DNA from: Archangium primigenium
GTDB taxonomy: Bacteria; Myxococcota; Myxococcia; Myxococcales; Myxococcaceae
Reading direction: 5' to 3'
Assembly: GCF_016904885.1 (NCBI RefSeq)
Contig: NZ_JADWYI010000001.1
Span: forward strand, 620,001 to 684,000
DNA: 64,000 bases
Under the pieces are notes generated by a model, which saw only the letters and a program-made list of their open reading frames with translations, was not told where the DNA came from and made no database searches. A program made the position numbers and the translations under genes. Shown here one piece after another: positions 28,766-35,577 of the stretch. The stretch's first letter is position 1. Each line of letters starts with the position of its first letter.

Positions 28766-29015
28766 TTGTCCACAGTCCGAGGTTGTCCCCAGGCCCCTCT
28801 GTTTCTGTACGGGTTGAAGAGTGATCTTGATCTATTAGGGGTGACAGCAGGGGGTGTGGACTTGTGGAAAAGTCCGTAAGCACCCGAGACCCTTGAGCTT
28901 TCTCGGATATGCTACATGTGGGGAAGTTGGAGCTTTTCCCCCGCCATCCACAGGCTGGGGATCAGCCGGGGACTTATCCACAGGGCGGGGGGAGTCCATC
29001 CACAGGCCGTCCACA
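28766..29015. other. Cluster of DnaA-box-like sites (candidate origin or DnaA-regulated region)
   Basis: Seven copies of the DnaA core TCCACA, or its complement, lie in 250 bases of intergenic DNA. TTATCCACA (28974-28982) and TTTTCCACA (minus, 28863-28871) match the consensus TTWTNCACA perfectly. TTGTCCACA (28766-28774), CCATCCACA (28944-28952 and 28996-29004), CCGTCCACA (29007-29015) and a reverse AAGTCCACA (28855-28863) are weaker. An AT-richer segment (about 28800-28842, with GATCTTGATCTATTAG) lies between them and could unwind. No dnaA, dnaN or gyrB gene is in the window. Confidence 0.6.
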
Positions 29016-29040
29016 GGGGTGTGGGCTATGCTGCGCGGCC

Positions 29041-30759
29041 ATGTCCCATCCCAACGAGAGCGCCGATCCGCACCGGGGCGCGCGCATCGGCCGCTACCAG
29101 GTGATTTCCCAACTCTCCGTGGGCGGCATGGCGGAGCTGTTCCTGGGCTTCACCTCGGGGCCCGGGGGTTTTCGCAAGTACGCGGCCATCAAGCGCGTGC
29201 TCCCGGATGCCCGGAGCGACTCGCAGTTCGAGCAGATGTTCCTGGACGAGGCGCGCATCACCGCGGCGCTCAACCATCCGAACATCGGGCAGGTGTTCGA
29301 GCTGGGCCGGGATGACGAGGGCCTGTTCCTGGCCATGGAGTTCATCGCGGGGCAGAACCTGGAGCAGGTGCAGAGCGTGTGCGCCCGGCGCGAGGTGCCG
29401 CTGCCGCTGGGCTTCGGCCTGTCGGTGGTGCGCGACATCTGCCTGGCGCTGCACTCCGCGCACGGCTTCACCACGCCCGCGGGCAAGCCCTTCCCCATCA
29501 TCCACCGGGACGTGGCGCACAAGAACGTGATGGTGACGTACGAGGGCGAGGTGAAGCTGCTCGACTTCGGCATCGCCAAGGCCCGCGGGGGCCGCTCGCA
29601 CACCATGGCGGGCATGGTGAAGGGCACCACGGGCTACATGTCCCCGGAGCAGGTGCGGGGCGAGCCGCTCGATGGGCGCAGCGACCTGTTCGCCGTGGGT
29701 GTCATGCTCCACGAGCTCATCACCGGGGGGCGCCTGTTCGCGGGCCACTCGGAGGTCCAGGAGATGAAGCTCATCCTGGACGCGGAGATCCCCGAGCCCG
29801 TGTGCCGCACGGAGGCCATGCCCCCGGGGCTGGTGGCGGTGGTGTACCGGGCGCTCGAGCGCAAGCGGGACGAGCGCTACGCCAACGGCCGGGAGATGGC
29901 GCGCGCCCTCGAGGCCGCGGCCGGCGGGCGGCTCTTCGACGCCGAGCAGCGCGCGGCCTTCATGGCCGAGCACTTCCACAAGCAGAAGGAGAACACCCGC
30001 CGCCTGCTGGAGAGCGCCGACGGCATCCCGGACACGGCCGGGTCCGAGGATGAGCCGTTCGCGCCCACGGCGCTCCGGCCCGCCGCGCCCGCGCCCGCGC
30101 CCGCCCCCCGGCGCAAGCCGGCGCCCTCGGCGGAGTCCTCCCAGGGCGTGCTCACCCCGGGGCGCCGGGTGCCCGCCGTGCGCGCGGCCCCGTCGGCCCC
30201 CCCGACCGAGTCCCACGCGATGGCCTCCGCCCCGGCCGCCCCCAACCCCCCGGCCGCCGCGAAGTCCCCGGCCCCGGTGTTCAAGCTGCTCTTGCTCCTG
30301 CTGGTGGCCGGAGGGCTGGGCCTGGCCGCGGTGGGCCTCGTCCAGATGGATCGCGCGGGGGTGGACGTGGGCACGCGCCTGACGCCCGAGGAGCTCTCCC
30401 CCATCACCCCCATCGCTCCCCGCGCGGGCTCGGCCCCGGCCGATGCCCCGAAGGACGCTCCGAGGGACGCCGCCCCCGCGCGCCCCGGTGAGGACGCCCC
30501 GGCCGACGCCGACGACGCCCCGGCGCGCCCGACCGGCAAGCAGGGCTGGCTCACCCTGGTGGTGATTCCGGAGGCGGAGGTGTCCCTCAACGGCCGCGTG
30601 CTGGGCAAGACGCCGCTGTTCAAGGTCCAGGTGCCCGCGGGCCAGCACCGCCTGCGCATCAAGGGCGCGGACGGCAAGCGGCGCGAGCTGTCGGTGCCCA
30701 TCGCCGCGGGCAAGACGGCCCAGTTCAAGCTGTCCCTGACGGACATTCCCGAGCGCTGA
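29041..30759 (+). CDS. Membrane Ser/Thr kinase with PEGA domain, second copy
   Basis: ATG at 29041 (MSHPNESADPHRGARIGRYQ) starts a 572-residue protein; the longer frame would run through the DnaA-box cluster. The kinase domain (about 15-285) has SVGGMAELFLG, HRDVAHKN, DFGIAK and SPEQ. A Pro/Ala-rich linker leads to a membrane segment near 413-435 (LLLLLLVAGGLGLAAVGLV) and a PEGA domain at about 500-570. It is a clear paralogue of the kinase at 23875, with a shorter linker. The FHA-containing sigma54 activator gene follows by 80 bases; FHA domains bind phosphothreonine, so that protein is a plausible partner. Confidence 0.92.
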   Translation: MSHPNESADPHRGARIGRYQVISQLSVGGMAELFLGFTSGPGGFRKYAAIKRVLPDARSDSQFEQMFLDEARITAALNHPNIGQVFELGRDDEGLFLAMEFIAGQNLEQVQSVCARREVPLPLGFGLSVVRDICLALHSAHGFTTPAGKPFPIIHRDVAHKNVMVTYEGEVKLLDFGIAKARGGRSHTMAGMVKGTTGYMSPEQVRGEPLDGRSDLFAVGVMLHELITGGRLFAGHSEVQEMKLILDAEIPEPVCRTEAMPPGLVAVVYRALERKRDERYANGREMARALEAAAGGRLFDAEQRAAFMAEHFHKQKENTRRLLESADGIPDTAGSEDEPFAPTALRPAAPAPAPAPRRKPAPSAESSQGVLTPGRRVPAVRAAPSAPPTESHAMASAPAAPNPPAAAKSPAPVFKLLLLLLVAGGLGLAAVGLVQMDRAGVDVGTRLTPEELSPITPIAPRAGSAPADAPKDAPRDAAPARPGEDAPADADDAPARPTGKQGWLTLVVIPEAEVSLNGRVLGKTPLFKVQVPAGQHRLRIKGADGKRRELSVPIAAGKTAQFKLSLTDIPER

Positions 30760-30838
30760 GAGCCGCCCCGTCGCGGGATTTCCAGCCTCCCGCGACGGCG
30801 GTGTCCCACGGCCATGAAGCGTGTTAGCGTGCCGGGCC

Positions 30839-32203
30839 GTGGCGTCTTACGACGATGAAGAAGGTTCGGACGCAACGGCGACCCTGATGATGCGGTCGGG
30901 GCCCGGGCGCATTCGCATGAAGCTGCTCGTGCTCTCCGGGGCCGAAGCGGGACGCTCGTTCTCGCTCGACCACAAGGAGTACGTGGTGGGCAAGGCGCCC
31001 ACCTGCGACATCATCCTGGAGGACAAGACCATCTCGCGCCAGCACCTCAAGCTCGAGGTGCATGACGAGCACGTGCTGGCGGTGGACCTGGAGTCGCGCA
31101 ACGGCTCGTTCTTCGATGGGATGCGCTTTTCCCAGCTGGAGCTGCGGCCCGGCAGCGTCGTCACCCTGGGCACCACCGAGCTCAAGCTGGTGCCCGAGGA
31201 CACGCGCGAGCGCTCCGTGGTGCTCTCCGGGCGGGACCGCTTCGGCGCGCTGGTGGGCAAGAGCCGCAAGATGCGCGAGGTCTTCACCCTGCTCGAGCGC
31301 ATGGCGCCGGGCGGCTCGGACGTGCTCATCCACGGCGAGACGGGCACGGGCAAGGAGCTGTGCGCCGAGGGCCTGCACAACGAGAGCAAGCGCGCCAAGG
31401 GCCCCTTCATCATCGTGGACCTGGCGGGCATCGCCCCCTCGCTCATCGAGAGCGAGCTGTTCGGCCACGTGAAGGGCGCCTTCACCGGCGCCCTGGCGGA
31501 CCGGGCCGGCGCCTTCGAGCGCGCCGCGGGCGGCACCGTGTTCCTCGACGAGGTGGGCGAGCTGCCCCTGGACCTGCAGCCGCGCCTCTTGCGCGTGCTG
31601 GAGCGCCGGCAGGTCAAGCGCGTGGGCGCCAACGACTACCGCACGGTGGACATGCGGGTGGTGGCCGCCACGCACGTGGACCTGGAGGGCGCGGTCAAGG
31701 CGAACAAGTTCCGCCGCGACCTCTTCCACCGGCTCGCCGTGCTGCGCGTCACCCTGCCGCCCCTGCGCGAGCGGCCCGAGGACATCCCGCTGCTCATCGA
31801 CACCGTGCTCGGCCGCATGGGCCGGCCCCCGAGCGACCTGTCCGACCAGACGCGCGCCCTGCTCAGCCAGTACCCCTGGCCGGGCAACGTGCGCGAGCTG
31901 CGCAACGTGGTGGAGCAGGTGGTGAACCTGGGCGAGGAGGCCCTGCCCGAGATGCCCCCGCTGCCCGGCGGAGAGGTGTCCTCGGGCTCCAGCGGCGGCG
32001 GCGGCGGCGTGGATCTGGACCTGCCCTTCAAGGACGCCAAGGAGCGGCTCATCGAGGGCTTCGAGCGCGACTACCTCAAGGGTCTGCTCGAGCGCTGCGA
32101 GGGCAACATCTCCCGCGCCTCGCGCGAGGCGGGCATCGACCGCGTCTACCTGCGCAAGCTCCTGCGCAAGCACGGCCTGGACAGCGGCGGCGAGAGCGCC
32201 TGA
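30839..32203 (+). CDS. FHA-domain sigma54-dependent activator
   Basis: GTG at 30839 gives 454 residues; ATG at 30888 is possible. An FHA domain spans about residues 30-115 with the signature residues GKAPTCDI, ISRQHLKL and SRNGSFFDG. The AAA+ domain follows with Walker A GETGTGKE, the sigma54 contact loop GAFTGA and Walker B GTVFLDEVGE. A Fis-type helix-turn-helix (GNISRASREAGIDRVYLRKL) ends the protein. It should bind upstream DNA and activate sigma54 promoters, gated by a phosphorylated partner bound to FHA. Candidate binding sites and two sigma54 promoters lie 0.6-3.4 kb downstream. Confidence 0.95.
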   Translation: MASYDDEEGSDATATLMMRSGPGRIRMKLLVLSGAEAGRSFSLDHKEYVVGKAPTCDIILEDKTISRQHLKLEVHDEHVLAVDLESRNGSFFDGMRFSQLELRPGSVVTLGTTELKLVPEDTRERSVVLSGRDRFGALVGKSRKMREVFTLLERMAPGGSDVLIHGETGTGKELCAEGLHNESKRAKGPFIIVDLAGIAPSLIESELFGHVKGAFTGALADRAGAFERAAGGTVFLDEVGELPLDLQPRLLRVLERRQVKRVGANDYRTVDMRVVAATHVDLEGAVKANKFRRDLFHRLAVLRVTLPPLRERPEDIPLLIDTVLGRMGRPPSDLSDQTRALLSQYPWPGNVRELRNVVEQVVNLGEEALPEMPPLPGGEVSSGSSGGGGGVDLDLPFKDAKERLIEGFERDYLKGLLERCEGNISRASREAGIDRVYLRKLLRKHGLDSGGESA

Positions 32204-35316: not shown

Positions 35317-35403
35317 GGCGCGAAGCTGGACGCCGCCGTCCCCCGTGCTATTCGGGACGGCGCGCGTCGCGTGAAGGCCCCTCCCCGGGTCTCCGCCGCC
35401 CCT

Positions 35404-35487
35404 GGTGACTCCCGTCACCACCTGGTGACTCCCGTCACCCCCGCCGCCCCTCGGGGCTCCCCTTCCCTCCTGGTGACTCCCGTCACC
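35404..35487. promoter_or_regulatory. Three enhancer-like palindromes upstream of the M4 protease gene
   Basis: GGTGACTCCCGTCACC occurs identically at 35404-35419, 35424-35439 and 35472-35487. The first two are 20 bases apart, the same spacing as the pair at 32771-32806. The last copy ends 74 bases before a sigma54 promoter. The surrounding 336-base gap has no gene. Confidence 0.72.
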
Positions 35488-35561
35488 CCCCCCACCCCCG
35501 CCAGTCCCCGCGGTCCTCGTCAAATCAAGCACTTGCACGGAAGTAAGCATGATGCGGCATG

Positions 35562-35577
35562 TGGCACACATCATGCT
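35562..35577 (+). promoter_or_regulatory. Predicted sigma54 promoter
   Basis: TGGCACACATCATGCT has a perfect -24 block TGGCAC and the GC of the -12 block at exact spacing. It lies 75 bases before the protease ATG at 35653. Confidence 0.7.

Follow-up and report, generated by a model that had tools for sequence, protein, structure and literature searches.

A predicted kinase-linked FHA/sigma54 regulon of signal-less hydrolases and effector-like proteins in Archangium primigenium and related myxobacteria

The window analysed here, a 64,000-nucleotide stretch of Archangium primigenium DNA (contig NZ_JADWYI010000001.1, positions 620,001 to 684,000), contains a locus encoding a Ser/Thr protein kinase, an FHA-domain sigma54 activator, a paralogous protein pair (A and B) and an M4 thermolysin-type protease, the latter two groups each being preceded by clustered palindromes. 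With a probability that we put at roughly 0.7, the data point to a kinase-gated sigma54/FHA regulon of hydrolases and effector-like proteins that would leave the cell independently of the Sec pathway, through predicted binding of the activator, predicted kinase signalling and predicted export. A preliminary description of this DNA had proposed a local circuit with two targets. This view proved too narrow, as the locus appears to be part of a genome-wide regulon, the products of which are mostly signal-less, effector-like proteins.

The five palindromes of the window, of the form GGTGACTCnnGTCACC, lie in two clusters, and each cluster is followed by a promoter with GG-N10-GC spacing and then by a start codon. 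The cluster before the A/B pair comprises palindrome 1 (GGTGACTCGAGTCACC, 32771..32786) and palindrome 2 (GGTGACTCCCGTCACC, 32791..32806), while that before the M4 gene holds palindromes 3, 4 and 5, all GGTGACTCCCGTCACC, at 35404..35419, 35424..35439 and 35472..35487, respectively; none is assigned to a strand. As described previously, the first two copies of each cluster are 20 bp apart, and the GG-N10-GC sites are located 134 and 74 bp past the clusters and 35-75 bp before the starts. Across the 9.49-Mb genome the exact pattern GGTGACTCNNGTCACC is present at five places, all in this locus, and the looser pattern GGTGACNNNNGTCACC at 14, five of them in the locus, compared with none for a reversed-pattern control. 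When up to three mismatches were allowed the window was not enriched (14 matches against 10.8 expected, a number reached by 19 of 100 shuffles), and thus the signal resides in the exact copies and their clustering. A chance origin of the palindromes was ruled out by their rarity in the genome, by their co-occurrence with the activator across genomes and by the promoters found at doubled clusters, which are described below.

The palindromes belong to a family, G[G/A]TGAC-N4-GTCA[C/T]C, often paired at 19-21 bp, which was followed through 145 genomes of the order, from genera that include Archangium, Hyalangium, Myxococcus and Corallococcus. Doubled cores, searched for as TGACN4GTCA-N5..26-TGACN4GTCA, occur in 58 of these genomes. 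The activator family (orthologues and paralogues at E ≤1e-150) is present in 61 genomes, 54 of which contain doubled sites, compared with only 4 of the 84 genomes that lack the activator; the two loci fetched from those four (L140 and L141; fetched loci carry L numbers) have no promoter. Promoters were rated with an ad hoc consensus score for the -24/-12 element (maximum 20.9), and a cut-off of 17.7-17.8 was chosen because a score of ≥15 is too permissive (524 sites per 128 kb). Loci were fetched for many, not all, of the doubled sites, giving 88 distinct doubled clusters after removal of duplicates, and a sigma54 promoter (score ≥17.8, 30-160 bp away) was present at 81 of these. The corresponding frequencies were 3.1% at random positions (71/2277) and 14.5% at intergenic positions upstream of genes (39/269). 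Of 108 spacings within pairs, 68 measured 19-21 bp and 27 measured 32-37 bp, corresponding to roughly two and three turns of the helix. A stricter pattern combining palindrome and promoter returned 42 and 36 matches in overlapping searches of 10 genomes, and its reversed control returned none. Conservation at the locus itself was assessed in 40 stretches taken around relatives of protein B and other sites. Palindromes recur beside activator orthologues in these relatives: three congeners (L031-L033) and two Archangium-group loci (L046 and L051) encode activators 82-88% identical to that of the window and carry palindromes before the M4 gene.

The activator, a protein of 454 amino acids with a GTG start (30839..32203, forward strand), displays an FHA domain (PF00498, 5.2e-15; PF16697, 5.4e-27), a AAA+ sigma54 interaction domain (Sigma54_activat, PF00158, 3.6e-63) with the GAFTGA loop present in the translation, and a Fis-type helix-turn-helix (HTH_8, PF02954, 1.5e-5) with the helix IDRVYLRKLLRKHG. 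The kinase gene upstream of it (29041..30759, forward strand) encodes 572 amino acids; a motif scan identified the catalytic loop HRDVAHKNV, and Pfam assigned the kinase domain (PF00069) and a C-terminal PEGA domain (PF08308). Pfam and the translations therefore bear out the earlier assignment of both genes. In the 68 activator proteins extracted from the fetched loci (one being the window's own gene counted twice) the domain plan is common, while the recognition helix varies. Among the 43 copies with enough flanking sequence, many of which are close relatives of one another, a strict site, single or doubled, lies within ~4 kb of 22 of the 31 activators with the helix IDRVYL and of none of the 12 with other helices. 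Similarly, no strict site was found near the second activator of the A. primigenium genome (2.05 Mb, helix IDRMYLYKL).

It could be argued that a different regulator binds the palindromes and that the FHA activator is a mere neighbour, since many sites are far from any activator copy and many genomes contain two to five paralogous activators. The genome-level co-occurrence of doubled sites and activator, the helix specificity and the presence in L068, L069 and L191 of sites within 50 bp of where the activator gene ends make this quite improbable. The sequence evidence (co-occurrence across genomes, tracking of the recognition helix and sigma54 promoters downstream) instead lends good support to the palindromes being the predicted enhancers of this activator subfamily, as the preliminary description had proposed. 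Paralogous FHA activators with the helix IDRFYL are also encoded near a kinase in L190, L192, L195 and L197, in loci without this palindrome, where they adjoin small proteins with similar Ser-rich N-termini; these are perhaps parallel circuits using other enhancers.

A Ser/Thr kinase motif occurs within 5.5 kb of 36 of the 44 activator copies that have 4 kb on each side, compared with 13 of a control set of 58 target loci (8 kb each), some of which contain an activator. In 23 of the 36 kinase-linked copies an equally oriented HRDFKPANV motif is located ~2.3 kb upstream, in an apparent operon. The kinase of the window, which ends 79 bp upstream of the activator, differs from this usual type in its HRDVAHKNV loop, and the second activator of the same genome has an HRDFKPGNV kinase, similar to the usual type, at the usual distance. 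Activator and kinase thus stay paired, although in the window the partner is of another type. Judging from adjacency, the neighbouring kinase would most likely gate the activator via the FHA domain.

The M4 protease (615 amino acids, 35653..37500, forward strand) contains, by Pfam, catalytic and C domains (PF01447 and PF02868, with the HEXXH motif as HEIAH) together with FTP and PepSY propeptide domains, and its N-terminus, MQISNKNPAVAPVVTQPTAP, has no evident signal peptide. The -24/-12 element before this gene (TGGCACACATCATGCT, 35562..35577, forward strand) shows the GG-N10-GC spacing in a TGGCAC/TGCW context, scores 19.6 and lies 74 bp past the cluster and 75 bp before the ATG at 35653. 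A perfect match (AATCAAGCACTTG, 35523..35535, forward strand) to the IHF consensus, used here as WATCAANNNNTTR, is situated between enhancer and promoter. Over the 128 kb formed by the two strands of the window, 53 sites score ≥17 and 8 score ≥18, so the M4 element is rare and the A/B element, at 17.8, less so. A TGGCACACA-N3-TGCT promoter precedes each of the 10 M4 genes examined, one of which is a second M4 gene of the same genome (3.73 Mb), as do two or three palindromes (≤1 mismatch); the perfect IHF consensus is found at five of the 10 and at none of the other five. The predicted sigma54 promoter of the M4 gene is very well supported by this conservation and by the palindromes and IHF-type site upstream, in agreement with the target status claimed for the gene earlier. 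In contrast to this signal-less protease, a second M4-like protease in the window (39610-41997) appears by eye to have a lipoprotein-type signal (MIRHRILAAVLTLPLAACS). Directly behind the M4 gene at 35653 are two neighbouring DUF6184 genes (37594-37962 and 38135-38524, both reverse strand); in two of the three congeners (L031 and L033), relatives of the former occupy this position as well.

Support for the other target group is less uniform. Proteins A (334 amino acids, 32992..33996) and B (413 amino acids, 34075..35316), both on the forward strand, are paralogues by alignment; A matches no Pfam, NCBIfam or PADLOC family, and B consists of a variable N-terminus and a conserved C-terminal domain. 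Their -24/-12 element (TGGATTACCTTTTGCA, 32941..32956, forward strand) scores 17.8 and is positioned 134 bp past the cluster and 35 bp before the ATG at 32992. Relatives of protein B occur in 38 of the 145 genomes. The earlier view that the activator switches on this pair gains from L046 and L051, in which a similar element, TGGATCGCCTCTTGCA, precedes B at 20 bp from a single palindrome. It loses from the congeners, where palindromes and promoter are not combined: L031 and L033 have no palindromes upstream of B, and L032 has palindromes before B with a best promoter score of only 15.6. The predicted sigma54 promoter of the pair is thus graded as moderately supported.

The C-terminal domain of B, in a model with a predicted local distance difference test score of 85.3, has parts of subtilisins as its nearest folds. 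Comparison of the A/B domain with MycP1 gave a VIA Z of 8.6 and a root-mean-square deviation of 3.3 over 145 residues, with a Foldseek E of 0.1. By contrast, hhalign against the eight S8 domains of the same genome returned 0.1%, the PF00082 match was weak and confined to 2 of 19 members of the domain (best E about 0.1), and a sequence search of solved structures gave no match below E 0.05. A possible subtilisin-like identity, while attractive by the modelled fold, receives no support for descent from profile comparison. The role of the pair is possibly accessory.

The regulon extends well beyond the window. At least 12 palindrome-marked promoters were found in the genome, and seven of the nine GGTGACNNNNGTCACC sites outside the window precede a promoter and a gene, the other two (1035320 and 6497715) being inside called genes. 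A purely local two-gene circuit was ruled out on this basis. Targets outside the window encode proteins of 144 (890896, where the palindrome reaches into the 3' end of an open reading frame called upstream), 339 (2931688), 220 (3555077), 416 (6126942), 247 (8631118) and 194 amino acids (9352913), the second M4 protease (3734113, 610 amino acids), an MshEN protein (5356411), an SLT transglycosylase (8699347) and a thaumatin-like protein (9145009, 330 amino acids).

To describe the products as a group, 94 targets were called by the palindrome and promoter rule only, single palindromes included, from 120 loci and the window, and collapsed to 29 families; 479 non-redundant neighbours served as controls. 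An IHF-like site within one mismatch is present at 23 of the 94 targets, compared with 0.8% of shuffles. Just one of the 29 families has a hydrophobic N-terminus, compared with 115 of the 479 controls. Within the first 50 residues, which are poor in acidic residues in the targets, the median Ser+Pro+Thr+Gln fraction is 0.42 as opposed to 0.22 in the controls, and a D[GS]F[DEGSQ] motif falls within the first 110 residues in 12 of the 29 families and in 13 of the 479 controls. Type III effectors of Pseudomonas follow three N-terminal rules: a Ser-rich N-terminus, an aliphatic residue or Pro at position 3 or 4, and no Asp or Glu in the first 12 residues. The last rule is obeyed by 27 of the 29 families against 102 of the 364 controls without a hydrophobic N-terminus (28%), and all three by 12 of the 29 against 18 of the 364, a result that applies at group level. 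Pfam domains among the targets include M4, SLT (several), the M91 'effector protein' family, GH8, pectate-lyase-like, transglutaminase-like, thaumatin and MshEN; CBM6 (L090) and C39-like (L185) proteins are encoded by palindrome-linked genes outside the strict target rule. An MshEN-domain protein without an effector-like N-terminus is a recurrent palindrome-linked target in L081, L088, L132 and L150, the domain being assigned by Pfam for L150 and by sequence likeness for the other three.

In the mechanism that we propose, the activator would bind pairs or triples of palindromes spaced about two or three helical turns apart, although single sites also occur, and would drive sigma54 RNA polymerase at -24/-12 promoters located at a distance of 43-144 bp, often assisted by an IHF-type bend. 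The adjacent Ser/Thr kinase would gate the activator via its FHA domain. The products would then exit the cell without a Sec signal, the export signal being presumably the disordered, acid-poor N-terminal stretch rich in Ser, Pro and Thr. Of this scheme, the sequences directly display the sites and their spacing, the promoters, IHF-type sites at some of them, the co-occurrence with the activator, the conservation and the N-terminal signature. A further, speculative step would identify the export machine with the predation machine T3SS*/Kil, a needleless type III secretion system (T3SS*) acting with Kil (Tad) in Myxococcus xanthus, making the regulon products candidate cargo. The T3SS* is required for prey lysis (PMC12075869, PMC10433427), and the portions of the literature consulted include a 2023 review that describes the effectors of T3SS* and Kil as unknown (PMC10433427) and a 2025 paper that refers to 'potential effectors' (PMC12075869). 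The appeal of the step is that prey lysis depends on T3SS*, whose effectors counted as unknown in 2023, and that the regulon offers Sec-less enzymes degrading cell walls and proteins. The activator and palindromes might accordingly define the effector arsenal of T3SS*/Kil, comprising lytic transglycosylases, M4 and M91 proteases, glycosidases and many families of unknown kind with a shared N-terminal export signal, and the kinase-FHA-sigma54 switch may sense prey contact; we regard this extension as tentative and rather unlikely to hold in full.

Export by another non-Sec route, such as a type VI secretion system, a contractile particle or membrane vesicles, is possible, if on the unlikely side. 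It would account for targets that lack signal peptides, and no physical linkage to T3SS genes was observed: of the two export-gate genes in the A. primigenium genome, one was inspected with the 19 kb around it (L263), a stretch that contains no TGACN4GTCA. Against it, the disordered, Ser/Pro-rich N-termini without acidic residues follow the classic type III pattern, and the Pfam scans of the targets revealed no type VI or PAAR-type domain, though most of the scanned targets match nothing. Alternatively, the regulon may be real but developmental, its products being set free by programmed lysis or laid down in fruiting bodies, with an N-terminal stretch that is no export signal. In the sections of the sources drawn on, M. 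xanthus sigma54 regulators are said to act mainly in development (PMC6971385) and the network of Nla28 is assigned to starvation (PMC9765219), and export is deduced here from sequence. We consider a developmental role unlikely, as the FTP/PepSY propeptides of the M4 protease and the lack of acidic residues among the first 12 positions in 27 of the 29 families fit active export better, while SLT, M91 and GH8 hydrolases fit an attack on other cells.

A number of observations weigh against a kinase-gated regulon of exported proteins. Strict sites are missing from the ~4 kb around nine of the 31 IDRVYL activators, seven of the 61 activator genomes lack a doubled site, and some of the counted pairs, in unfetched loci, look coincidental (for example the sole pair of genome G111). 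Seven of the 88 clusters miss the promoter test (L082, L097, L101, L121, L140, L141 and the A/B cluster of the window), the last of these narrowly, since its score rounds to 17.8 but is slightly lower than the cut-off. No IHF-like site within one mismatch was found at 71 of the 94 targets. Protein A (MDLQLAYTAIPR) and the MshEN family break the no-acid rule, the L070/L127 family has a Sec-like start, the sole hydrophobic exception among the 29, and most scanned target proteins match no family. It should also be noted that p-values overstate independence, because families and activators come from related genomes and the gene caller and scores were our own. Finally, FHIPEP, the type III export gate, is encoded in 120 of the 145 genomes (two copies in A. 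primigenium), which renders type III co-occurrence useless as a test.

Several further features deserve description. In the window, a small open reading frame of 115 amino acids (32308..32655, forward strand), identified by translation, follows the activator gene; it matches no Pfam family and has a weak NCBIfam match far under the cut-off. In three Myxococcus-group genomes of 9.0-9.5 Mb a triple enhancer and sigma54 promoter of the regulon are followed by no open reading frame but by an RNA of ~370 nucleotides (L114:5608-5978, reverse strand; L115:6210-6580, forward; L248:2008-2378, forward), with paired hairpins that carry GGGG loops and a terminator-like end. The L115 RNA folds with a z of -8.2, and none of 100 shuffles was equally stable. 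In L114 and L115 the RNA, which matches no Rfam family at gathering score, lies between genes that by eye resemble truB and tkt. At all 16 other loci of the genus that were read (L247, being incomplete, is excluded), such a promoter drives a gene for a protein of 482-539 amino acids. Identity with Pxr was ruled out, as the source, in the part used, gives Pxr as 108 nucleotides long and behind nla19 (PMC5568312). Upstream of the kinase gene, 250 bp (28766-29015) contain six of the 19 DnaA-box-like TCCACA motifs of the window. Cumulative GC skew reaches its lowest point at about 39-41 kb of the window, and the only Bac_DnaA match lies ~26 kb outside it. Together these point to a candidate replication origin.

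The significance of these data is that a short DNA signature picks out signal-less hydrolases gene by gene, turning the question of T3SS*/Kil effectors into a testable list, and that an enhancer sequence and a target set can be proposed for one member of the large FHA activator family. A coherent set of co-regulated enzymes that leave the cell by an unconventional path would deserve attention even if the route proved to be another one. The listings of open-licence PubMed Central papers that were searched showed no earlier description of an enhancer or regulon of this activator, nor of a regulon of unconventionally exported enzymes like this one, and a literature search for a link to the mbhA hemagglutinin gave nothing useful.

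Jelsbak, Givskov and Kaiser reportedly described in 2005 the FHA-domain enhancer-binding proteins of M. xanthus, which are said to combine FHA, AAA+ (GAFTGA) and Fis-type helix-turn-helix domains. The activator of the window has the same domain plan, to which the enhancer sequence, spacing rules and target set proposed here are added. HrpR/S and sigma54 control type III secretion in Pseudomonas syringae via hrpL; these are likewise sigma54 activators for type III export genes, whereas the activator described here would act directly on effector genes. PopC, a subtilisin of M. xanthus that is exported without a signal peptide, is also a signal-less exported myxobacterial protease, although it belongs to another protease family and is not known in this regulon. 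The T3SS*/Kil machine would need signal-less lytic effectors, and the regulon is tied to it by N-terminal signature and enzyme types only. The closest regulatory parallel concerns Nla28 of M. xanthus, a sigma54 activator with multiple sites upstream of TGGCACG-N4-TTGC-type promoters (PMC9765219). According to the passages of that paper drawn on, which never mention FHA, its half-site is CT(C/G)CG(C/G)AG and its targets are starvation genes (PMC9765219). The two regulons are thus alike in multi-site sigma54 activation, whereas the regulon proposed here is distinguished by the inverted repeat GGTGAC-N4-GTCACC and by effector-like targets.

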